Source: Bacteroidota bacterium (GTDB taxonomy: Bacteria > Bacteroidota > Bacteroidia > Bacteroidales > JAADJA01). Taken from it: a stretch of 64,000 nt of DNA. The position numbers and the translations under genes are program-made. Shown one piece after another: positions 187 to 11,265 of the stretch (position 1 is its first letter; every line of letters begins with the position of its first letter). Location: the NCBI GenBank assembly GCA_020444515.1, contig JAHLKX010000010.1, positions 1 through 64,000 on the forward strand, written 5' to 3'. Below the pieces are notes generated by a model. The model did no database searches. It was given only the letters and a program-made list of their open reading frames with translations, and was not told where the DNA came from.

Positions 187-588
187 CTATATCTTCAAAA
201 GTTTATTGATCTCCCTTTGCAACTGATCCGGCCGGATCCCTTTCTCCAGGTATTGATCGGCTTTGATCCAGTTGCGTTCCTCTTCGGTGTCGAGGCCAAA
301 GATCATCCCGGTTTCGGCTGTCACCGCCGTGGCAATGATCACCGGTACGTCGGGATATTTTTTCTTCATTTTATAGCTGAGGATGAAGCCGCTGTCCTGG
401 TTTTCCATCATCAGATCGAAGATGGCCAGGTCGGGCTTCTCGGTTTCCAAAAGCGCTTCTCCTTCCTTCTGGCTTTCAGCTGTGATCGTTTCGAATCCGA
501 AACGTTCAACCTGCATCTTCATTTGCGTCAGGACATCAATGTCATCGTCCACGATCATGATTTTTTTTCTTGCTTCCATTGCTTTCAA
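187..588 (-). CDS. Receiver-only response regulator of the hydrogenase cluster
   Basis: A stand-alone CheY-like receiver domain of 133 residues with no output domain. The acidic pocket is the DDD at residues 14-16, the phospho-acceptor is D58 (IFDLMM), the Thr switch is in IIATAVT, and the conserved Lys is in YLEKGI. The stretch between the fourth and fifth strands is slightly long and holds a NWIKAD motif that resembles the receiver at 7039-7557. It starts 2 bp after the hydrogenase-kinase fusion gene, so it is very probably co-transcribed and the natural phosphorylation partner of that kinase. With no DNA-binding domain it would act by protein contact or as a phosphate relay. The ATG at 588 was chosen; an in-frame ATG three codons later is equally possible. 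Confidence 0.9.
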   Translation of the reverse strand: MKAMEARKKIMIVDDDIDVLTQMKMQVERFGFETITAESQKEGEALLETEKPDLAIFDLMMENQDSGFILSYKMKKKYPDVPVIIATAVTAETGMIFGLDTEEERNWIKADQYLEKGIRPDQLQREINKLLKI

Positions 589-590
589 AT

Positions 591-2579
591 TTATACTTGC
601 CGTTTTCGCGGTATTGTAAGTTTAAATGTTGTTCCTGTTTCTCCTTTTTCGGGATCAGCGTTGGATTGAACTGTTATCTGCCCTTTATGCATCTTTACGA
701 TGCCGTATATCAGTGGAAGTCCAAGGCCAGTGCCTTTCCCCATCTCTTTTGTAGTGAAAAAAGGTGTAAATAATTTTTCCATATTTTCTTCGGGAATACC
801 AATTCCGGAGTCTTTTACATTGATGAACACAGAATTTCCGTTACCGGAAAGATCTACTTGCAAAATCCCACCATTTGGCATTGCTTCCACGGCATTTTTT
901 TCGAGGTTGGTCAGCACCTGCATCATCTGATCCTGATCGATCTCAACCACCGCGTCGCTTAATTCCGAATTGAATTTGATCTCCACATTTCCTGGATTGA
1001 TCACCGAATCGAGGCTGTGTTTCACAAATTCTTCAATGTTGGTCTCCTGTAGCTTAACCTGATTTTTCCTGGCAAAATTGAGCAGTCCGCCCACGATTCC
1101 CTTGCATCGATCAGCCTGTTCAACGATCAGTTCCAGGTCTTTGCGGATCGGACTTTCCTCCGGTGCTTCATCTTTCAGGATATTTGAATACATGGTGATC
1201 ACACCCAGTGGATTGTTCAATTCATGAGCGATACCTGCTGAAAGCTGCCCCATACTCGCCAGTTTCTCCGATTGTTTGAGCGCCTGTTGTGTGGTTGCCA
1301 GTTTCTCGTTCGAAAGGTTGAGGTCTTCCACCGATTTGTGTAATTTTTCAATGGTAAAAGGCAGGCACATCTCCGTTTCAGCAAGTCCTTCAACAATGGC
1401 AATGGCATGATCAACACAGGTTTCATACCCACAGGCACCGCAATTCAAATGATCTTTCTGGGTGAATTTCCCCATCTTCAATAAGGCTTTTTCAATCTCT
1501 TTCTCCTGAGGCAAAGGGATCCGGCGATCTGCCGGCTCGAAATGCTGCTTGTAATCAACATTGCTAAATTCCTCAACCTGTTTCGCAAATTCTGCCGGAT
1601 CAACTTTATTCAACTTTTCCCTAACATAATTGCTGATCTGTGTGCGACGGGTATACCTTTTTCCTCCCTTCGACATGCCGGGTCCCATAATACACCCCTC
1701 GCAGCACAGCAGCTCCAGGTGATGGGAATTCAACAATCCACTTTCAAACTCCTTCACGGCATCCCTGAAATTGACCCTTCCTTCCGCGACCACAATATTT
1801 CCTTCGGCGATATCGTCCGACTTATTCACCGTTTGCAACAATCCCCGGCTCACCGGGAAAATGGCGCCTTTACCGGCCATCGGGGGATCAAATTCCGTCG
1901 CTTCAATCTCTTCCTCTTTGATCCCGTTGGCTGCCAGTAAATACCTCAGCTCGGTGAAGGTGATGGCCGCATTCACCTCGTCCGATTCGGCTTTTTTAGC
2001 GATACACGGACCGATGAAAACCACTTTGAGGTCATCGCCATGCATCTTGCGCAAGATCCTTGTCATCGCCACCATCGGCGAAGCAATCGGTGCCAGGTAG
2101 CTCACCAGTTGGGGATGATATTGCCGAATGTAATACACGATAGCAGGGCAATCGGAGGAGATATGGGGGCGATCCCCGTTCAAATCCATCAACTTCTCAT
2201 ATTCACGCGCCACCATATCCGCTCCAAAAGCCACTTCATTCACCAAATCAAACCCTAATGAGCGGATCATGCCCACTAGCTTTTTATAATCTTTTATATC
2301 CGAAAACTCAGCCGCAAAACTGGGCGCCACAATGGCCGCTACCTTCTGTTCCGACGCCAGCAATGCCTTCACTTCCGGATTTGAATTGTAATATACTTTC
2401 GCACCCTGACTGCACACCTTCACACAATTCCCACACCCGATGCAGCGCTCGATCATCACCTCGGCCTGACCGTTCATGATGCGGATTGCCTTCACCGGAC
2501 ACTCGCGCACACAGGTGTAGCAAACCTTACAGAGGTCTTTCTGCGTATAAACGAGGTTGGTATGTGGGGTTCCGGACAT
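591..2579 (-). CDS. Sensory [FeFe]-hydrogenase-like domain fused to a histidine kinase
   Basis: A 662-residue soluble protein. Domain order: two [4Fe-4S] ferredoxin motifs (C17, C20, C23, C27 and C46, C49, C52, C56); a hydrogenase H-cluster domain (about 75-320); a small Fe-S domain (C380, C383, C388, C405); a helical linker (about 410-437); a HisKA-type phospho-acceptor (H452 in AHELNNP); and an ATPase domain (N562, DSGIGIP at 590-596, GKGTGLGL at 614-621). The three H-cluster loops are SSDCP (141-145), GPCIAKKAE (190-198) and LCCEGC (291-296). The expected cluster-ligand cysteines C144, C192, C292 and C296 are kept, but the proton-relay Cys of catalytic enzymes is D143. This fits a sensor reporting H2 or redox state by phosphorylation. 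The partner is probably the receiver 2 bp downstream. Signal and output are inferred. Confidence 0.9.
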   Translation of the reverse strand: MSGTPHTNLVYTQKDLCKVCYTCVRECPVKAIRIMNGQAEVMIERCIGCGNCVKVCSQGAKVYYNSNPEVKALLASEQKVAAIVAPSFAAEFSDIKDYKKLVGMIRSLGFDLVNEVAFGADMVAREYEKLMDLNGDRPHISSDCPAIVYYIRQYHPQLVSYLAPIASPMVAMTRILRKMHGDDLKVVFIGPCIAKKAESDEVNAAITFTELRYLLAANGIKEEEIEATEFDPPMAGKGAIFPVSRGLLQTVNKSDDIAEGNIVVAEGRVNFRDAVKEFESGLLNSHHLELLCCEGCIMGPGMSKGGKRYTRRTQISNYVREKLNKVDPAEFAKQVEEFSNVDYKQHFEPADRRIPLPQEKEIEKALLKMGKFTQKDHLNCGACGYETCVDHAIAIVEGLAETEMCLPFTIEKLHKSVEDLNLSNEKLATTQQALKQSEKLASMGQLSAGIAHELNNPLGVITMYSNILKDEAPEESPIRKDLELIVEQADRCKGIVGGLLNFARKNQVKLQETNIEEFVKHSLDSVINPGNVEIKFNSELSDAVVEIDQDQMMQVLTNLEKNAVEAMPNGGILQVDLSGNGNSVFINVKDSGIGIPEENMEKLFTPFFTTKEMGKGTGLGLPLIYGIVKMHKGQITVQSNADPEKGETGTTFKLTIPRKRQV

Positions 2580-2722: not shown

Positions 2723-4447
2723 TTACAACGGCACCTCCCGCTTCTCATATTCCGTGTGCAACAACTCATGACTCATATGTCCCAGCGGTTCGCCGAGGAA
2801 TTTTTCATACAGTTCGATCACCTCAGGATTTTTGTGTGAAACTTTAATGGAGTCGCGGTCGTCGATGTCGTATAGTGAACTCAGTCTGGAGAGGATCGCT
2901 TTCTGATCGGCACCGATATGCTGTCCGCCACCGGCAATGCAGCCGCCCGGACAGGCCATGATCTCGATGAAATGGATATCATCCCTTCCATTCCTGATCT
3001 CGTCCAGCAAAACTTTTGCATTTTGCAATCCGCTGACCACTGCAACGCCCACTTCCAGGTCACCGATCTGTAATTTGGTCTCTTTTCTTCCGGTAAGTCC
3101 GCGAACAGCATTGATTTTAAATTCTTTTAATTCATTTCCGGTGAGTTTAAAATAAGCGGTCCTCAAAGCCGCTTCCATTACGCCACCCGATCCACCGAAT
3201 AATTTACCGGCTGAACTGCGAATGCCCAAAGGTGAATCGGTCAGCTCGGGATTGATGTTATACATATCCACGCCATACAAGCGGATCAACTGGGCCAGCT
3301 CGCGGGTGGTCATCACAGCGTCCACATCGGTGATGCCGTGGTGGGTCATATCTTCGCGTTGTGCCTCAAATTTTTTGGCCGTACAGGGCATGACCGACAC
3401 CGAATAAATATCCTCCGGTTTGGTTTTAATCTTATCGGCAAAATAGGTTTTGATCACAGCGCCGAGCATCTGTTGCGGCGATTTGCAACTCGAAACATTC
3501 GGCAGAAAATCCACGGCAAACTCTTCGGCGTATTTCACCCAGGCCGGACAACAACTGGTGATCAGGGGCAAGGTGCCCCCGTTGGCCACCCGGTCGATCA
3601 ATTCAGCCGATTCTTCCATGATGGTGAGGTCGGCGGAAAAACTCGTGTCGAACACAAAATCAAAACCGATCTTACGCAAAGCAGCGTTCATCAGTCCGTT
3701 GACGTCTGTTCCCGGTTGCATTCCAAATTCTTCAGCCAGTGAAACCGAAATTGCCGGGGCATATTGAACCACCACTTTTTTAGAGGGATCGCTTAATGCC
3801 ATCTGGATTTCATTCAGATGACCTTTTTCACTCAATGCACCTGTGGGGCAAACCATGATACATTGCCCGCAGTTCACACAACTTGATGTGTTCAATCCTT
3901 TATTGAATGAAGTGCCAATCAGTGTTTTACTTCCGCGATTGATATAATCGATGGCCGAAACCCCCATCACCTCTTCGCAAACCCGCACACAGCGGCCGCA
4001 CAATATGCACTTGTCAGGATCGCGGGTGATGCTCGGACTTGAAAGGTCTTTGCTGAAATTGTTTTTCAAACCGGAGATCCTTCTTTCGGTCACATGATGC
4101 TCAACGGCCAATTCCTGCAACTGGCAATTGCCGTTGCGAACACAGTACAAACAATCATCGGGGTGGTTCGAAAGCAGCAGTTCCACGATCATCTTGCGGG
4201 CTTCCACCACGCGGGATGTATGGGTTTTGATGCGCATGCCTTCTTCCACCGGGTATGAGCAGGATGTTACCAACCTTCCCGAATTTTCATGTTCCACCAC
4301 ACACATCCTGCAGGCACCCGACGGAAAATAGTCTTTCATGTGGCACAGGGTCGGCACCTTGATCCCGTTGCGCGTGAGCACATCAAGGATGGTTTCGCCC
4401 GGATTTGCCTTCATCGGCCTGTTATTTATTTCGATATTCATTTCCAT
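2723..4447 (-). CDS. hydA: [FeFe] hydrogenase catalytic subunit (HydA/HndD-like)
   Basis: Reduces protons to H2 or the reverse, taking electrons from the NuoE/NuoF-like subunits upstream. In the reading from the in-frame TTG at 4468 (numbering used here) it has an N-terminal [2Fe-2S] domain (C42, C53, C56, C70), a His-ligated [4Fe-4S] site (H102, C106, C109, C115), two [4Fe-4S] motifs (C154-C164, C197-C207) and an intact H-cluster domain: TSCCPAW (304-310), MPCTAKK (360-366) and MACPGGC (504-510). All catalytic residues are present, including the proton-relay Cys. The Thermotoga-type C-terminal [2Fe-2S] extension is absent. The TTG at 4468 overlaps the upstream stop by 4 bp; ATG at 4447 (residue 8) is preferred and ATG at 4441 is also possible. 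The HydEFG maturases it needs are not in this window. Confidence 0.95.
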   Translation of the reverse strand: MEMNIEINNRPMKANPGETILDVLTRNGIKVPTLCHMKDYFPSGACRMCVVEHENSGRLVTSCSYPVEEGMRIKTHTSRVVEARKMIVELLLSNHPDDCLYCVRNGNCQLQELAVEHHVTERRISGLKNNFSKDLSSPSITRDPDKCILCGRCVRVCEEVMGVSAIDYINRGSKTLIGTSFNKGLNTSSCVNCGQCIMVCPTGALSEKGHLNEIQMALSDPSKKVVVQYAPAISVSLAEEFGMQPGTDVNGLMNAALRKIGFDFVFDTSFSADLTIMEESAELIDRVANGGTLPLITSCCPAWVKYAEEFAVDFLPNVSSCKSPQQMLGAVIKTYFADKIKTKPEDIYSVSVMPCTAKKFEAQREDMTHHGITDVDAVMTTRELAQLIRLYGVDMYNINPELTDSPLGIRSSAGKLFGGSGGVMEAALRTAYFKLTGNELKEFKINAVRGLTGRKETKLQIGDLEVGVAVVSGLQNAKVLLDEIRNGRDDIHFIEIMACPGGCIAGGGQHIGADQKAILSRLSSLYDIDDRDSIKVSHKNPEVIELYEKFLGEPLGHMSHELLHTEYEKREVPL

Positions 4448-4464
4448 TGCTTCAAAATTTAAAC

Positions 4465-6414
4465 TCAAGAAATCGAGATGGCATTGAATTTACATGCGTC
4501 CACACAACTCCCACATCCGATGCACAGATCTTCCACGATGAAGTGGTGTGTTTTGCGGGCACCTACGATCGCATTCACCGGGCACTTCCGCACGCAGGCC
4601 ATGCAACCGGTACACAAGTCAATATCGATCTTATAGGTCCGCAACTCTGTGCACACGTTGGATTCGCATTTTCTCTCGTAGATGTGCGATTCGTATTCAT
4701 CACGGAACCACTTGAGGGTGCTGAGCACCGGGTTCGGTGCTGTTTGTCCCAGTCCGCAAAGCGAAGTTTCCTTGATCACCTTACCGAGTTTTTCCAACTG
4801 GATGATCCCCTTGAATCGTTGCAGCGCCTCTTTTTCGTTGTTTTTGTTGGGTTTGCTGGTGATACTTTCCAGGATCTCCAGCATCCGGCGGGTTCCTTCG
4901 CGGCAGGGAATACATTTGCCGCAGCTTTCGCGCTGGATGAAATCCATAAAGAATTTGGCCACATCCACCATGCAAGTATCTTCGTCCATCACAACCAGTC
5001 CGCCAGAGCCCATCATAGCACCCACGCTGATCAGCGATTCGTAATCGACCTGGATGTCGAGGTTTTCTTCGGTGATACAGCCACCCGACGGACCGCCAAT
5101 CTGTACCGATTTAAATTTTTTGTTGTTGGGAATACCGCCTGCAATGTCAAAGATGATCTCGCGAACGGTTGTTCCCATGGGGATTTCAACCAGTCCAGTC
5201 AGGGTGATGTTTCCTGAAAGGGCAAACACCTTGGTTCCCTTGCTTTTTTCGGTGCCGATGGATGCAAACCACTCCTCTCCCCGCGCCATGATCTCCGGAA
5301 GGTTAGAGAGGGTTTCCACGTTGTTGATGATGGTTGGTTTGCCAAACAACCCATTGACAGCCGGAAACGGCGGCCGGGGTCGTGGCATGCCGCGTTTGCC
5401 TTCGATGCTGTGGATCAGCGCGGTTTCCTCACCACAAACAAACGCACCGGCACCCATCTTTATGATGATGTCGAAATCGAAACCGCTGTCGAAAATATTT
5501 TTGCCGAGTAATCCATATTCCCTGGCTTGGGTTAAAGCTACTTTCAACCGTTCAATGGCGAGGGGATATTCGGCTCGGATATACACATAGCCTTTGGTTG
5601 CGCCGATACCGTAGGCGGCTATTGCCATCCCTTCGATCAGCCGGTGCGGATCACCCTCGATCACGGCGCGGTCCATAAATGCACCGGGGTCGCCTTCGTC
5701 GGCATTGCAGATCAGGTATTTCTGGTCGGCTTCGGTGCCGTTGGCAAATTTCCACTTTTTACCGGTCGGGAAGCCACCGCCACCACGACCGCGCAATCCG
5801 CTTTTTTCGATCTTATCGCAAACCTCAAAAGCAGTATATAATTTTACTGTATCCAGGAAACTTTTATATCCGCCCCTGGCAATGTATTCTTCGATATCGA
5901 TGGGATTGACGAGGCCACAATTTTTCAGGACGATCCTTTTCTGAGGTGCAAAAAAGGGATGTTCATCGATGAAAGGGACATTTTCCCAAACCTCGAGTTT
6001 CTCCGACCTGAATTGTCCCAGAATATTTTCATTGTGAGAATCGAAGGTGAAAGCACTTTCGAGAACATCGTTCACCTTATCGCCCGTGACATTTTTAAAA
6101 GAGATGCGGTTTTTACCGGGAAGCTGCACATCCACCAGGGGTTCGGCAGCACAAAACCCAATACAACCCACTTTGATCACTTCCACATCCAGTTCATGAT
6201 CTTCGATGTAGCGTTGTGTTTCAACCCAGGTTTTTTCAGCGCCGGCACCCAGTCCGCAGGTTCCTGTACCGATATAGATCACAGGTTTGGTCACCTCTTC
6301 ACGTCTGAGTTTGGCGAGTTTTGCGCTGACAAACGGATCAGTCCTGTCCGGCGTACCGGTTAGCAAATGATCGATCAGGAATTCCTTCATTTCTGTTTTG
6401 TTTGCCGTTTCCAT
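4465..6414 (-). CDS. hydB: NADH-linked hydrogenase flavoprotein subunit (NuoF/HydB/HndC-like)
   Basis: A 649-residue FMN- and NAD(H)-binding subunit that passes electrons between NADH or ferredoxin and the hydrogenase. It has a thioredoxin-like [2Fe-2S] N-terminal domain (C53, C84, C88), the FMN loop RGRGGGGFPTGKKW (208-221), the nucleotide-binding GEETALIHSIEG (328-339), the NuoF [4Fe-4S] site (C498, C501, C504, C553) and a C-terminal pair of [4Fe-4S] motifs (C601-C611, C631-C641). This is the layout of electron-bifurcating HydB and NADP-reducing HndC proteins. Its ATG shares one base with the stop of the NuoE-like gene (TAATG), so translation is probably coupled. NAD versus NADP preference cannot be read off. 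The symbol is by analogy. Confidence 0.93.
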   Translation of the reverse strand: METANKTEMKEFLIDHLLTGTPDRTDPFVSAKLAKLRREEVTKPVIYIGTGTCGLGAGAEKTWVETQRYIEDHELDVEVIKVGCIGFCAAEPLVDVQLPGKNRISFKNVTGDKVNDVLESAFTFDSHNENILGQFRSEKLEVWENVPFIDEHPFFAPQKRIVLKNCGLVNPIDIEEYIARGGYKSFLDTVKLYTAFEVCDKIEKSGLRGRGGGGFPTGKKWKFANGTEADQKYLICNADEGDPGAFMDRAVIEGDPHRLIEGMAIAAYGIGATKGYVYIRAEYPLAIERLKVALTQAREYGLLGKNIFDSGFDFDIIIKMGAGAFVCGEETALIHSIEGKRGMPRPRPPFPAVNGLFGKPTIINNVETLSNLPEIMARGEEWFASIGTEKSKGTKVFALSGNITLTGLVEIPMGTTVREIIFDIAGGIPNNKKFKSVQIGGPSGGCITEENLDIQVDYESLISVGAMMGSGGLVVMDEDTCMVDVAKFFMDFIQRESCGKCIPCREGTRRMLEILESITSKPNKNNEKEALQRFKGIIQLEKLGKVIKETSLCGLGQTAPNPVLSTLKWFRDEYESHIYERKCESNVCTELRTYKIDIDLCTGCMACVRKCPVNAIVGARKTHHFIVEDLCIGCGSCVDACKFNAISIS

Positions 6415-6878
6415 TATACTTCCTTGTTTTTCAGGTTTTCAATGATCTCCGTGAGCGATTGCTCGGTGACTTTGGCGTAAAAATTACCATTGATGTTCAC
6501 CACCGGAGCCAGTCCGCAAGCGCCGATGCAGGCCACCACTTCGATGCTGAATAGCCCGTCGCGGGTGGTTTGCCCCGCTTTCGCCTTGAGGATTTTTTCC
6601 AGTTTATCGAGTACCGTTGCCGAACCAAGCACGTGGCAGGCTGTTCCGCGACACACCTGGATATGGTATTTGCCTTTGGGCTCGAACCTGAACTGGTTGT
6701 AGAAGGTGGCAACACCATAGATCTTGCTGGTCGGGATACCCAGCCTGCTGCCCACTTCAGACACCGCTTCCTGAGAGAGAAACCCTTCACTTTCCTGTAT
6801 CTCCTGAAGAATGGGTATCAGGCTGTCGCGTTTTGCGCCTCCTCGTGCATCCAGTATTTCCGCTATCCCGTGTTTCAT
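6414..6878 (-). CDS. hydC: Hydrogenase [2Fe-2S] subunit (NuoE/HydC/HndA-like)
   Basis: A 154-residue thioredoxin-fold [2Fe-2S] protein, the usual NuoE length. The four ligands are C76 and C81 (CRGTAC) and C117 and C121 (ACIGAC), after an N-terminal helical region with the family motif YGVATFYNQF (54-63). It docks to the NuoF-like subunit and completes a three-subunit NAD-linked hydrogenase with the next two genes, each of which overlaps its neighbour or is close to it. It is the first gene of the hydrogenase unit proper; a 98-bp inverted-repeat element lies just upstream. No good TAnnTTTG promoter was seen directly before it, so transcription may come from the regulator genes upstream or from an unrecognised promoter. 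Confidence 0.94.
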   Translation of the reverse strand: MKHGIAEILDARGGAKRDSLIPILQEIQESEGFLSQEAVSEVGSRLGIPTSKIYGVATFYNQFRFEPKGKYHIQVCRGTACHVLGSATVLDKLEKILKAKAGQTTRDGLFSIEVVACIGACGLAPVVNINGNFYAKVTEQSLTEIIENLKNKEV

Positions 6879-7038: not shown

Positions 7039-7557
7039 TTAGTTGGCGTGAAAGCTCACCTTTTTCCCGAGCAATGCTTTGATCTCCGGTAACAGTTTTT
7101 TCGAATCGACCGGCTTTTTCAGGAAACCATCCACCGGTACCCAGGTGTTTTTACCTTCGTCGGTGCGATAATCAATACCAGCTTTGCCACTGACGATGTC
7201 TTTCATAAGAATCACCTGCAATTCCTTGTATTTTGGATCCTGACGGAACTCACGTGCCATTTCCCTGAAGCTCTCCTTGGTGGTGGTAAATACCTCAATG
7301 GAAGTCTGCATGAGAATGGGCATGTTTTTGAATTCCGGTTCGTTCACCAGCGCTTCGGCCAGTTCGAAACCTTCGTAATGGGTGGTCATCATCACATCGA
7401 GGATGGCGAGGTCGGGGTTGATCTCGCGGGCCAGCTTCAGCCCTTCATCTTTGTTATTAGCAGAGAAAACCTCATAACCTTCATTTTCCAAAATGGTGCT
7501 GATCACGTTGATGATATCAACGTCATCGTCAACGATTAAAATCTTTTGTGTGTTCAT
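7039..7557 (-). CDS. Receiver-only response regulator with an enlarged alpha4 region
   Basis: A CheY-like receiver (172 residues from ATG 7557; eight more from ATG 7581) with no output domain. In the longer numbering the acidic pocket is DDD (18-20) and the phospho-acceptor is D62 (AILDVMM). Between the Thr/Ser switch (LMQTSIEV) and the conserved Lys (FLKKPV) lies an extra 40-50 residues, where ordinary receivers have about 20. The end of the insert, TWVPVDGFLKKPV, resembles NWIKADQYLEKGI in the receiver at 187-588, so the two look related. ATG 7557 is preferred because the residues after it start the receiver fold at once. It sits directly upstream of the hydrogenase subunits. Confidence 0.88.
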   Translation of the reverse strand: MNTQKILIVDDDVDIINVISTILENEGYEVFSANNKDEGLKLAREINPDLAILDVMMTTHYEGFELAEALVNEPEFKNMPILMQTSIEVFTTTKESFREMAREFRQDPKYKELQVILMKDIVSGKAGIDYRTDEGKNTWVPVDGFLKKPVDSKKLLPEIKALLGKKVSFHAN

Positions 7558-7582
7558 GATGCTGTTGTTTCTAGGGTTCATA

Positions 7583-8020
7583 TTAATTTACCAATGAATG
7601 ATTGTCGAATTGTAAGTTGTGATTTTGCAGACCGGGCGAGAGGTAGAATGTTTGTTGTTTCTCCGTCACGATCTCGTGCAGCAGATCATAGTTGTCGCTC
7701 GATTTGGTGAGGTAGCCACTCACGCCCGCCGCAATCATCCGGTTTACGTAACGCGGATTTTCGAGGGATGAAAAAGCGATGAAACGTGTTTTCGGGAATT
7801 TCTGATGTCCGATCAGCACCGCTTCAAAACCACCCATTTCCGGCATGGCCACATCCAGAAAAACGATGTCGGCTTTCTGTATCTCCAGCAGATCGAGGAG
7901 TTGCAGGCCGTTTTCAGCTTCGCCTACAACCTTTACATTCCCGATGTTGAGAAGAATTCTTTTCAATCCTTCGCGGAAATATTTATTGTTGTCAGCGATT
8001 ATGATCTTCTGTTTTTTCAC
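7583..8020 (-). CDS. Receiver-only response regulator, NarL-type receiver, GTG start
   Basis: A receiver domain of 145 residues related to NarL/FixJ receivers (FREGLKRIL near the start, phospho-site in VFLDVAM, Lys in GYLTKSS) but ending without the LuxR helix-turn-helix. The frame stays open to an ATG at 8137, but that would add about 39 residues of unlikely sequence. GTG at 8020 gives VKKQKIIIADNN, the normal receiver start, and a full promoter match lies immediately upstream of it (8037-8068). In place of the usual DD pair it has ADNN, so the metal-binding pocket is weakened and phosphorylation may differ. It is followed closely by the next receiver gene and so probably forms a signalling unit with it. 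Confidence 0.82.
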   Translation of the reverse strand: MKKQKIIIADNNKYFREGLKRILLNIGNVKVVGEAENGLQLLDLLEIQKADIVFLDVAMPEMGGFEAVLIGHQKFPKTRFIAFSSLENPRYVNRMIAAGVSGYLTKSSDNYDLLHEIVTEKQQTFYLSPGLQNHNLQFDNHSLVN

Positions 8021-8036
8021 TGTATTAATTTTGATC

Positions 8037-8068
8037 CAAAAGTAGCACCTGAAACCACCTCCGCACAA
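8037..8068 (-). promoter_or_regulatory. Bacteroidota-type promoter for the receiver gene
   Basis: On the minus strand a TTG (8068-8066) and TACTTTTG (8044-8037) are separated by 21 nt, matching the TTG-N19-21-TAnnTTTG form. Predicted transcription would begin near 8030, about 10 nt before the GTG at 8020, which supports that start codon over the upstream ATG. Confidence 0.6.
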
Positions 8069-8387
8069 GAGCGAAAAGCGCAATAAAAAAACAGGTAAAA
8101 ACACCCTAAGTATAAATTTCAATACTATTGAAATCAATAAGTTATAATTGTTATTTGATTAACAAAAGGTTTCTAAAAGAACATTCTTTAAAATTCCAAA
8201 AACCAATGGAAGGCTGTTGTTATTCAATTAACAGAAAGCCTAAGAAATTGTCGTTTTCTTGAAAAAAGTGAAAAAAAATTTCGAGCAGGTGTTTTACACG
8301 GGTTGTGGGATGTGGGGGTTTTGCGAAACTGATGGGAAACCTGTTTGGCAAGCTTTTACTTAAACGGTCGTAAACCTGAAAGTATTT
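8069..8387. other. AT-rich spacer without recognised gene
   Basis: About 320 bases between the NarL-type regulator and the promoter of the receiver gene. Apart from poly-A and poly-T runs (for example near 8261-8280) nothing coding, no clear terminator hairpin and no RNA gene was recognised. The spacer separates the regulator pair (8388-11265) from the receiver-hydrogenase block, so the two are likely separate transcription units. Confidence 0.5.
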
Positions 8388-9023
8388 CTAATTTACCAAC
8401 CCATTCTTAATCGCAAACATCACTAAATTAGGTGCATTTTTAGCTCCTGTCTTTTCGAAAAGACGGGCACGGAAACCATCAACGGTACGGCTGCTAACAC
8501 CGAGGAAATTAGCGATCTCCACATTGGAATATCCTTTGCAGATCAGCTCCAGCACTTCCTGTTCACGGTCGGTGAGGGCGATGGTGGTATTCTTTTGTTT
8601 GGGTTTGAGGTGGACGTTCACCGAATTCATGAACTCTTCGGAAAAATAACTTTCATCCTCCAATACCAGGTTGATGGCTCGTTCGAGTTCTTCGGAGGTG
8701 GTTTTTTTGAGCAGAAACCCGGAGGCGCCCGCTTCGATCATTTTATTGAAATAACTGATCTCTTCGAACATGGTGAGGGCAATGACCTTGATGTCGGGAT
8801 ATCTGGCCGACACTTTTTTGGTCGCTTCAATACCATCCATCACTGGCATCTTGATGTCCATCAGGATCACATCGGCCGGTTGTTTTTTGAGGAGTTCGAG
8901 CAGTTCATTACCATTGGAAGCCTCCCCCACTACCTTAATAAAATCAATTTCATTCAGGATGGTGTAAAGTCCTTTTCTGAAAATGACGTGGTCGTCGACG
9001 ATGATCACTTTTGCTATTTCCAT
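8388..9023 (-). CDS. NarL/FixJ family response regulator with LuxR-type HTH
   Basis: A complete 211-residue two-domain DNA-binding response regulator. The receiver has D10/D11 in the pocket and D56 (ILMDIKMP) as phospho-acceptor; the C-terminal LuxR-type helix-turn-helix runs about 145-205 (LTDREQEVLELICKGYSN and later SRTVDGFRARL). The upstream gene on the same strand is a HisKA_3-type kinase, the class that normally phosphorylates NarL-type regulators, so the two are a likely cognate pair. The 130-bp gap between them holds a degenerate repeat. Targets are unknown; the neighbouring hydrogenase genes are plausible ones by position only. Confidence 0.93.
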   Translation of the reverse strand: MEIAKVIIVDDHVIFRKGLYTILNEIDFIKVVGEASNGNELLELLKKQPADVILMDIKMPVMDGIEATKKVSARYPDIKVIALTMFEEISYFNKMIEAGASGFLLKKTTSEELERAINLVLEDESYFSEEFMNSVNVHLKPKQKNTTIALTDREQEVLELICKGYSNVEIANFLGVSSRTVDGFRARLFEKTGAKNAPNLVMFAIKNGLVN

Positions 9024-9044
9024 ATTATAATTTCATGCGAATTT

Positions 9045-9150
9045 ACAAAATGTTTAACCACGAATATCCGCGAATTTTTTTCCGCTAATCTTCACGAATG
9101 CATTTTCACAATTAGTGTTCATTCATTTATCATTGGCGCACATTCGCTGT
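9045..9150. repeat. Degenerate CGAAT / ATTCG intergenic repeat
   Basis: Between the kinase and its regulator lies a run of CACGAAT, CGCGAAT, CACGAATGC, TTCATTCA and CACATTCGC units in alternating orientation (for example CCACGAATATCCGCGAAT at 9059-9076). Such palindromic CGAAT-rich spacers are common in Bacteroidota. No role can be shown; it may form an RNA hairpin that separates expression of the two genes. Confidence 0.45.
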
Positions 9151-9153
9151 AAA

Positions 9154-11265
9154 TTACGGTTTTTTCTTTTTCAACTTCAGCGACGCAATTAAAAACATCC
9201 CCTCCCCCGGTTTGGTGTTAATATCCACAGTACCCTTCACCGACTTGATCTTGTTGACGATGTTGTTCAGCCCAAGGCCCGTGTGTTGTTTCATAGCATC
9301 ATCAAGGTCGAACCCGACGCCATCGTCACGGTAATATAAAATTACCTGGTTTTCGAAACTCTTCAGTTCGATTTTAATGTTTTTGGCCGAAGCATGGCGG
9401 ATGGTGTTGTTGATCAACTCCTTTACAGCCTGGTATAAAACCGTTTCTTCAATACCCCGCTCTTCGATGGTATATTGATGTGTCAATACCTCAATGTTGA
9501 TCGATTCGGTTTTTTTAATAAAACTGCAAAAATCATTGACCGCAGCGGCCAATCCGAAATCCTGTAAAATGTTGGGGCGAATATTACGCGAAATGGTTCG
9601 GGTAGATGTGATAGCCATATCAACCAGTTCTTCGATGTTGCGCACAGCTTCTTCCTCATCGATCTTTTTGAAGTTCTTTTTTTTGAGCAGATCGGTATAT
9701 AACTTAACGGTAGAAAGGATTGGTGCCAGGTCGTCGTGAAGATCAGCGGCAAAACGCTTGCGCTCGTTTTCTTCGGTCTGGATGATAGTAGAGAGAATTC
9801 GGTCTTCCACCTCTTTGCGTTCTGAAATATCCCTTGAGATGGTGAGGATCATTTGTCTGCCTTGATAATCGATCAGCCGACTTTTCATCTCCACCGGGAT
9901 CACCCGGCCATCTTTCGCCACATTTTCCGATTCATAACGGTGCTGACCGAATTTCCTGATCATGGCAATGTTTTCATCCACGGTGGTTTTAAGGTGTTCA
10001 GGTTTTATGTGAAGGACATTCATGTTGCAGAATTCCTGCCGGGTATAACCAAGACTTTCACAGGCAACCTGGTTTACTTCCACAAAATGACCATCAAAGT
10101 CAATCACATAAATATCATCCGAACTGTTATTAAATAACGCCTGAAAATGCCGTTCCGTTTGCTCCAGTGCGTCCTGTGTCGACTTCAGTTTTTTAGAAGA
10201 CATCTCAAGTTGTCCGAGGAAGTTTCTTACATTTTCAGTGGTTATAAAATAAACAAAAATAGAAAGTGCCAGTATAATCACCAATGCAATAATGGCCGAA
10301 TTAAAGACCACCTCCCTGACCAGTGCTCCGGTTTCATCCTTCAAAGGCATGGCAGCGGCAATCGTTAATTTAAAATCAGGAAAGTATTGCCAGGCAACAA
10401 CTTTCTTGCGCCCATCCCGGTTGAGGGTATAGGTGGTAACACCGCTTCTATTTGCCAGCATGGTGTCGATGATGGGTTCATCGTTCCACAATTCTCCTGA
10501 GGCAAAGGGATGCACCAAAAAGCGGCCTTCTTCATCCATAACAAAGGGAAAACCACTTTTACCGATCGTCAGGGTAGCTATCTTCTGTTGCAGTTCATCA
10601 AGATCTTTTTCTTTATCACCTACATAGAGCATCCCTATAACGTTATCATCCACTGTGATTGGCTCATAGGCCGTGATATACCAGCTGTTCACCACATAAG
10701 CCCGTCCGAAATAAGTATCCCCCTGCTCCACTGTTTTGATCACCGGGGAATCATTGGGAATAAAGGTACCAATGGCACGTGAACTATCTTTTTTCAGCAC
10801 ATTGGTCGAAATCCTCACATAGCCGCTGTCGATTTTCTGGAAAATAGTAGCGGTTCCTCCTACCAGTTCCTTTACGCCATCAACAAAATCTGAACTTCTG
10901 TAAATAGACTCGCTGTTGTATTTCCAGTTTTTAATCACTGTATCAAATGAACGACCGGTAATTTGATTGGTCACCCGGATAGGGATCTCATTCTGATTCA
11001 CTGAGAGATCACCTGAATAAAACAGCCTGTGCGCCACTTTCAAGTCCGATTTCACCTTAGCCATTTTCAGATCGCGCTCCCGCTCAAACATTTTAGTGAT
11101 TGTTTGCACCTCCAGGGTAAGGTTTCGTTCTATGGAATGATAAATATTTTGCCGCAAATTATGCACCGAGTAGAGGGTTATAATCGTTATGGCCAAAATC
11201 ATACCCATGATGATCTGAAGAAACAACCTGAACTTGGGAGAGCGTTTGATTTCTCTATTTGCCAT
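9154..11265 (-). CDS. Cache-PAS sensor histidine kinase (HisKA_3, NreB/NarX-like)
   Basis: A 703-residue membrane sensor. Transmembrane segment 1 is about 14-34; an extracytoplasmic Cache-type sensing region runs about 40-315; segment 2 is about 320-342; a PAS domain lies at about 372-482 (ALFNNSSDDIYVID to SRDISERK); the HisKA_3 phospho-acceptor is H510 (ADLHDDLAP); and the ATPase domain has ELINNTIRHA (616-625), DDGVGFD (647-653) and GLGL (663-666). It would detect a small molecule outside the inner membrane and phosphorylate the NarL-type regulator encoded next. The ligand is unknown. A TAGTTTTG -7 element (minus strand, 11292-11285) gives a very short leader. The product is full length with no missing catalytic box. 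Confidence 0.92.
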   Translation of the reverse strand: MANREIKRSPKFRLFLQIIMGMILAITIITLYSVHNLRQNIYHSIERNLTLEVQTITKMFERERDLKMAKVKSDLKVAHRLFYSGDLSVNQNEIPIRVTNQITGRSFDTVIKNWKYNSESIYRSSDFVDGVKELVGGTATIFQKIDSGYVRISTNVLKKDSSRAIGTFIPNDSPVIKTVEQGDTYFGRAYVVNSWYITAYEPITVDDNVIGMLYVGDKEKDLDELQQKIATLTIGKSGFPFVMDEEGRFLVHPFASGELWNDEPIIDTMLANRSGVTTYTLNRDGRKKVVAWQYFPDFKLTIAAAMPLKDETGALVREVVFNSAIIALVIILALSIFVYFITTENVRNFLGQLEMSSKKLKSTQDALEQTERHFQALFNNSSDDIYVIDFDGHFVEVNQVACESLGYTRQEFCNMNVLHIKPEHLKTTVDENIAMIRKFGQHRYESENVAKDGRVIPVEMKSRLIDYQGRQMILTISRDISERKEVEDRILSTIIQTEENERKRFAADLHDDLAPILSTVKLYTDLLKKKNFKKIDEEEAVRNIEELVDMAITSTRTISRNIRPNILQDFGLAAAVNDFCSFIKKTESINIEVLTHQYTIEERGIEETVLYQAVKELINNTIRHASAKNIKIELKSFENQVILYYRDDGVGFDLDDAMKQHTGLGLNNIVNKIKSVKGTVDINTKPGEGMFLIASLKLKKKKP

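Follow-up and report, generated by a model that had tools for sequence, protein, structure and literature searches.

Kinase-fused [FeFe]-hydrogenase-like proteins encoded beside bifurcating hydrogenases have already been described, as BfuT sub-type V (PMC11406978). In the part of that paper devoted to BfuT, a group C3 [FeFe]-hydrogenase of the BfuABC cluster, sub-type IV has a PAS domain and sub-type V a histidine kinase domain; the latter occurs in Hydrogenedentota and Calditrichota with relatives in Bacteroidota, and three named Bacteroidota have two bfuT genes, the first upstream of bfuC, the second downstream of bfuA (PMC11406978). For Hydrogenedentota, the same passages report group C1 proteins with HATPase_c detected and H-cluster motifs hardly found, and HydDB lists group C1 as putative "histidine kinase-linked" enzymes (PMC5037454). 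Both sources, as far as these sections go, contradict the original prediction for the locus studied here, which took the known sensory [FeFe]-hydrogenases to be separate or PAS-linked proteins. Because kinase-domain BfuT is placed in C3 by one source (PMC11406978) and kinase-linked proteins are C1 in HydDB, the naming of the groups is still in flux. For Ruminococcus albus it has been proposed that a sensory hydrogenase carrying a PAS domain and a phosphatase subunit regulates hydrogenase genes with H2 level (PMC6776011). In the accessible passages of the open literature we found neither experiments on a kinase-type sensory [FeFe]-hydrogenase nor any sensory [FeFe]-hydrogenase shown to control a kinase. 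The prediction of a poorly described system is thus fair in that the kinase type is little characterised, but not with regard to the direct fusion, which is in print (PMC11406978).

The locus lies in the window, that is, the whole 64,000-nucleotide stretch of Bacteroidota DNA that was analysed. A single frame on the minus strand (591..2579) encodes a 662-residue sensor kinase in which two [4Fe-4S] motifs, an H-cluster domain, an FeS domain, HisKA and HATPase_c follow one another, as judged from the open reading frame, Pfam, 79 full-length relatives and a structural model. The coordinates and length first given for this protein were right, and the proposed domain order is borne out by Pfam matches above cut-off (Fe_hyd_lg_C E=1.8e-45, HATPase_c 4e-24, HisKA 1.7e-13, FeS 1.2e-8, Fer4_10 5.4e-9; the query lacked residue 1, which shifts its numbering down by one). 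A plus-strand gene is ruled out, since that reading of 591-2579 has many stops throughout. All parts lie on the minus strand: the N-terminal ferredoxin part, matched by Pfam Fer4 families (2400..2552; C17/20/23/27 and C46/49/52/56, all eight kept in 80/80 aligned proteins); the H-cluster domain PF02906 (1680..2348), for which Pfam, alignment with CpI and comparison with HydA indicate C144, C192, C293 and C296 as ligand candidates and D143 at the position of CpI C299; the Pfam FeS domain PF04060 (1359..1448), whose invariant cysteines C380-x2-C383-x4-C388-x16-C405 (80/80) are spaced as in groups C and D (as given in PMC8163306); and the Pfam HisKA dimerisation and phospho-acceptor domain (1062..1253; H452 in 80/80) and HATPase_c domain (603..938). 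The last two supply the features of a histidine kinase, with H452 as phospho-acceptor in the motif HELNNP. No PAS domain was matched by Pfam anywhere in the protein; HisKA comes after a helix. Scores against the NCBIfam models FeFe_hydrog_B1 (177.9 bits) and FeFe_hydrog_A (93.5) fall far under the model cut-offs. The AlphaFold2 model (mean pLDDT 81.9, pTM 0.63; alignment of 55 sequences including the window protein) connects the FeS domain to the kinase by helices 402-437 and 442-471, with a linker at 437-441 below pLDDT 50, and places C405, the last ligand of the C-terminal cluster, near the start of the helix running to the kinase. Foldseek matched this model to [FeFe]-hydrogenases (best 8zqd, E=3.7e-19) and to the kinase ZraS (9jfj, E=6.2e-18). 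A PF02906 search of the protein's own genome returned two proteins, HydA and the fused kinase.

A fusion of this kind could in principle be an artefact, sequencing or assembly having merged two separate genes, as the original prediction had allowed. Among the best 80 of 270 encoding loci, nearly all of them from MAGs labelled Bacteroidales or Bacteroidetes, an unbroken fused frame of 653-674 aa was present in 79, including two close relatives 93% (L001) and 87% identical to the window protein; a spurious join is therefore so improbable as to be negligible, and we regard it as ruled out by the continuous frame. The one broken locus (L035, a 118-aa piece) was excluded from the conservation alignment, so that counts of 80 refer to the 79 full-length relatives plus the window protein. 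One relative, L050, is a 62%-identical fusion on a contig of a MAG labelled Spirochaetia, with no HydABC in the fetched upstream DNA; its presence there may be due to transfer or to mis-binning. A quick tree of the H-domain (FastTree) recovered the HydA proteins and the divergent sensors found upstream of similar operons (below) as clades, each with support 1.0, but no clade of the kinase proteins.

The genomic context is that of a bifurcating-type hydrogenase. NuoE, NuoF, HydA, kinase and receiver genes follow one another in the same direction with short gaps, all on the minus strand: a NuoE-like HydC subunit with a thioredoxin-like [2Fe-2S] domain (6414..6878, Pfam), a NuoF-like HydB subunit with an FMN/NADH domain (4465..6414, Pfam), the catalytic subunit HydA with canonical H-cluster residues (2723..4468, alternative ATG start at 4447; 808.5 bits against NCBIfam FeFe_hydrog_A6, cut-off 765), the kinase 143 bases further on and, after 2 bases (TTG start) or 11 (next ATG), a stand-alone receiver of 133 aa (187..588; Pfam Response_reg 1.1e-15). 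The catalytic hydrogenase and the receiver had been correctly foreseen as neighbours. The receiver is the presumed phosphotransfer partner (D58, T93 and K116 in 75/75); it has no output domain and so does not of itself establish control of transcription. In L001 the series continues as NuoE-NuoF-HydA-kinase-receiver-receiver/kinase-HydG-HydF-HydE. The window's contig (C8) starts at window base 1, and the HydEFG genes sit at the end of another contig (C3, length 873278), where an L001-like receiver-kinase is followed by HydG, HydF and HydE in the order expected if the two contigs adjoin; the assembly therefore probably broke inside the operon. HydE, HydF and HydG are thus all present in the window's genome. 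Neighbour matches were counted above 60 bits (100-200 for some) anywhere on the relevant side. Of the 64 loci with 7.5 kb or more of DNA upstream of the kinase, 61 have HydABC there (about 4.6 kb away in L033), and three (L050, L064 and L066) have none in the fetched upstream DNA. Wherever the downstream side spans 8.5 kb or more (53 loci), it contains receiver and receiver-kinase matches, accompanied by matches to HydG in 32/53, HydE in 30/53 (HydE and HydG cross-match) and HydF in 19/53. The receiver-kinase keeps D65, T93 and K115 in 74/74 and H159 in 73/74. Upstream of NuoE, window positions 7039-11265 hold, according to Pfam, two receiver-only genes, a LuxR-type response regulator and a Cache-PAS-HisKA_3 kinase; similar genes are found in L102 and L103. 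These receivers, the LuxR-type regulator and the Cache-PAS-HisKA_3 kinase are candidates for the output.

The pocket of the H-domain was compared on long frames only (79 kinases plus the window, 35 paralogous sensors, 74 HydA proteins plus the window), with HydA positions given in CpI numbering. All 18 cysteines of the kinase protein, D143 and H452 are invariant in the 80 aligned sequences; the cysteines include the 12 of the three accessory clusters and the four H-cluster ligand candidates. C293 is a likelier ligand than the adjacent C292, because the latter is Ser in a further relative (G330). Equivalents of CpI A230, P231, S232, C300, P301, S323, P324, P354, C355, K358, F417, C499, G502 and C503 are kept in 80/80 kinases, and A230, P231, S232, S323, P324, P354, K358 and F417 are residues around the H-cluster in CpI. 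Other positions have changed uniformly: M353 to Gly (Gly190), M497 to Leu and A498 to Cys in 80/80, the E279 column to Tyr in 80/80, and S319 to Ala in 71/80. The kinase has SSDCPAI, GPCIAKK and CCEGC in place of the canonical P1 (TSCxPxW), P2 (MPCxAKK) and P3 (ExMxCPGGC) motifs (listed in PMC11406978), a departure that counts against an H-cluster. CpI C299 is replaced by Asp (D143) in all 80 aligned fusions, and the CpI entry that scores best against the kinase by sequence is the C299D mutant 6glz. In group A enzymes any replacement of C299 except Asp is reported to cause complete loss or severe impairment, and in sensory enzymes the position is given as Cys in 17%, Ala in about 43%, and Pro and Ser in about 10% each (PMC10055695). 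As far as sequence can tell, the invariant Asp may thus reflect selection for a working proton relay. It is, moreover, a natural counterpart of a studied mutant.

We propose that the kinase is, probably though by no means certainly, the cytoplasmic BfuT-type sensor of a bifurcating-type HydABC operon, sensing H2 or redox state through its H-cluster. A hydrogenase-type Fe-S sensor joined to a kinase within the gene cluster of an H2 enzyme probably reports hydrogen or electron pressure to the cell, and the predicted sensor-to-phosphate role is supported by the sequence, together with domain order and operon; H2 itself may be what the kinase senses. HydEFG would fit the H-domain with an H-cluster, whose state could then be altered by H2, or by the ferredoxin pool, whose redox state would act via the two N-terminal [4Fe-4S] clusters, with D143 possibly taking the proton-relay place of Cys299. 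A conformational shift might pass via the C-terminal FeS domain to the helix that runs from C405 and on to the dimerisation helix with H452, with no PAS domain between them; the helices are seen in the model, and the signal would be carried along them. In TamHydS the C-terminal cluster is described as staying oxidised under H2, while H2 changes the secondary structure (PMC13104023). Since that cluster is not reduced by H2 and C405 lies near the kinase helix, a conformational link, and not an electron relay, is the simplest proposal. Autophosphorylation would follow, after which the phosphate would be handed to the receiver encoded just downstream and possibly also to the receiver-kinase, as the gene order suggests, and the output may tune expression or activity of the hydrogenase. 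Several points weigh against this scheme besides the altered P1 to P3 motifs: the low pLDDT of the linker at 437-441, the failure of H2 to reduce the C-terminal cluster of TamHydS (PMC13104023), the near-absence of H-cluster motifs from the Hydrogenedentota C1 proteins with HATPase_c (PMC11406978) and the receiver's lack of an output domain. With the sensor, the kinase and the likely receiver contained in two adjacent genes, the system lends itself to an in vitro assay of H2-dependent phosphorylation that uses two purified proteins and chemical maturation.

The main competing view is that the protein is an Fe-S redox sensor without a diiron site, its H-domain carrying at most a [4Fe-4S] cubane and reading ferredoxin or NADH redox state, not H2. 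One observation in its favour comes from a second, divergent sensor that is found with a SpoIIE-type phosphatase upstream in 36 of 64 loci, where the window has instead the receivers, the LuxR-type regulator and the Cache-PAS kinase. We refer to these sensors as PAS-type, a label taken from one scanned protein of L007 (L007:2311-4170; 34 further paralogues were found in the fetched loci). This protein is arranged as Fer4-H-FeS and matches PAS below the Pfam cut-off; its SpoIIE partner scores above it. Their H-site is often decayed: of the 35 full-length paralogues, 21 have Asp, Asn or Arg instead of the C499 ligand, and 28 have Asn at position 299. Most have a Lys one residue beyond the K358 column, so that K358 may be either lost or merely shifted. 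An incomplete ligand set is therefore compatible with the survival of H-domains near these same operons. What tells against a diiron-free sensor is that the tested residues lining the diiron site are kept in 80/80 proteins of the kinase type, in contrast to the PAS type.

The distribution of the kinase bears on the same question. In a sample of 392 genomes from the window's order, at least 121 were taken as kinase-type because they had listed matches with at least 48% identity to residues 66-420; the query thus excluded the kinase part, and the frames are 643-723 aa long except in G105 (467), the kinase motif having been seen directly only in the window and in eight that were fetched. With presence called at strict limits (1e-80 for HydF), HydA is found in 121/121 of these genomes among the matches listed, against a base rate of 251/392, and HydF in 112/121, against 247/392. 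This invariable company of HydA speaks against the diiron-free sensor. Co-occurrence fails as proof that the kinase needs HydEFG: once HydA is present there is no dependence on HydF (among the matches listed, the kinase occurs in 112 of 228 HydA-positive genomes with HydF and 9 of 23 without, p=0.39).

The nine listed kinase-type genomes without a HydF match at this limit are of several sorts. One (G135) has HydF in two pieces together with HydG, two (G330 and G391) have HydG and HydE, and G287 has HydE only. In the remaining five (G205, G267, G321 and G367 of family f19, and G039) no HydE, HydF or HydG was found above cut-off, HydF reaching at most 94 bits (cut-off 325.55), with no HydG at 1e-5 and no HydE at 1e-10. 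Their kinases nevertheless keep all 31 tested positions, which argues for the diiron-free sensor: the pocket is conserved whether or not the maturases are found, and so is no proof of an H-cluster built by HydEFG. For four of these genomes (G267, G367, G205 and G039) the HydA gene next upstream of the kinase was readable; this HydA keeps the four cysteines and differs at C299, M353, K358 and F417 (L094:11593-13287, L097:4070-5809, L095:11272-13026 and L098:9026-10780). Each of the five also has a further HydA copy that is canonical at all tested positions. These copies pose the same puzzle as the kept kinase pocket, and hint at a maturation that escapes detection and not at a lost H-cluster.

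In family f19 HydG is missing from all 12 genomes, seven of which reach a completeness of 90% or more with contamination of 5% or less; among the six analysed further (G018, G123, G205, G267, G321 and G367) neither HydE (0/6) nor HydF above cut-off (0/6) was found. Five of the six carry a HydA copy canonical at all tested positions, and Ser occupies the C300 column in the second copies and in the single copy of G018; the loci listed for this family are L094, L095, L107, L116, L127, L134, L135, L137 and L138. Family f95 (G095, G180 and G248) likewise combines a canonical HydA with no HydG, no HydF at 1e-80 and HydE matches of only 51-60 bits. Some anaerobic protists have [FeFe]-hydrogenases without HydEFG; a narrow literature search for [FeFe]-hydrogenases lacking these maturases found no paper. 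We consider it doubtful, as things stand, that lineages without recognisable HydEFG keep the full pocket and Asp relay either by an unfamiliar route to the H-cluster or with the pocket turned to some other sensing, wired into a kinase. Such genomes do offer a comparative test of whether a pocket of this kind needs HydEFG. Weighing the pocket and the company of HydA against pocket conservation in maturase-less genomes, we retain H2 or redox sensing through an H-cluster as the probable function, and give the diiron-free redox sensor a real but minor chance.

A further proposal is that the kinase binds HydABC or exchanges electrons with it, and thereby reports enzyme load or ferredoxin reduction, not free H2. 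The constant association with HydA among the listed genomes, the upstream HydABC of most loci and the N-terminal ferredoxin-type clusters would all suit such a docked arrangement, yet the three loci that carry the kinase with no HydABC in their fetched upstream DNA do not, and we hold it to be quite unlikely.

How, then, does the H-cluster sensor proposed here compare with described systems? It resembles sub-type V BfuT in having an H-domain and a histidine kinase in one chain and a gene downstream of bfuA in a bfuABC cluster, and the PAS-type sensor upstream in 36 of 64 loci recalls the Bacteroidota with a second bfuT upstream (PMC11406978). It differs by description, in that the Asp at C299, the receiver, the receiver-kinase and HydEFG within the cluster are not mentioned in the passages on sub-type V (PMC11406978); nor did we meet, in the literature passages on such sensors, an invariant Asp at this position or a pocket kept without HydEFG. 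A HydDB C1 protein, ING2E5A_0849 of Petrimonas mucosa, is similar in being a Bacteroidales [FeFe] hydrogenase near hnd genes that is called histidine kinase-linked, in the account available (PMC7768429). TamHydS (group D, M2e) has the same Fe-S layout with a C-terminal cluster, Leu at M497 and a place near a bifurcating hydrogenase, with a separate kinase-like gene nearby; it is described as having no kinase fusion, and Ser at M353 where the kinase has Gly (PMC8163306). Membership of group D was rejected on this last ground, M353 being Gly190 and not Ser or Thr. The traits of group C (M2f) that are present are the two N-terminal [4Fe-4S] motifs and Cx2Cx4Cx16C (80/80) and a residue other than Cys at C299 (80/80); assignment to the PAS-type M2f was rejected, as no PAS match follows the C-terminal cluster. 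TmHydS of Thermotoga maritima (group C, M2f) shares with the kinase two N-terminal [4Fe-4S] clusters, the H-domain, the C-terminal Cx2Cx4Cx16C, the loss of Cys at C299 and the change of M353 to Gly, according to the sections that describe it (PMC8163306). After the C-terminal cluster TmHydS continues with a PAS domain and has Ser at M497 (PMC8163306) and Ala at C299 (PMC10055695), whereas the protein studied here continues with HisKA-HATPase_c and has Leu and Asp at these positions.
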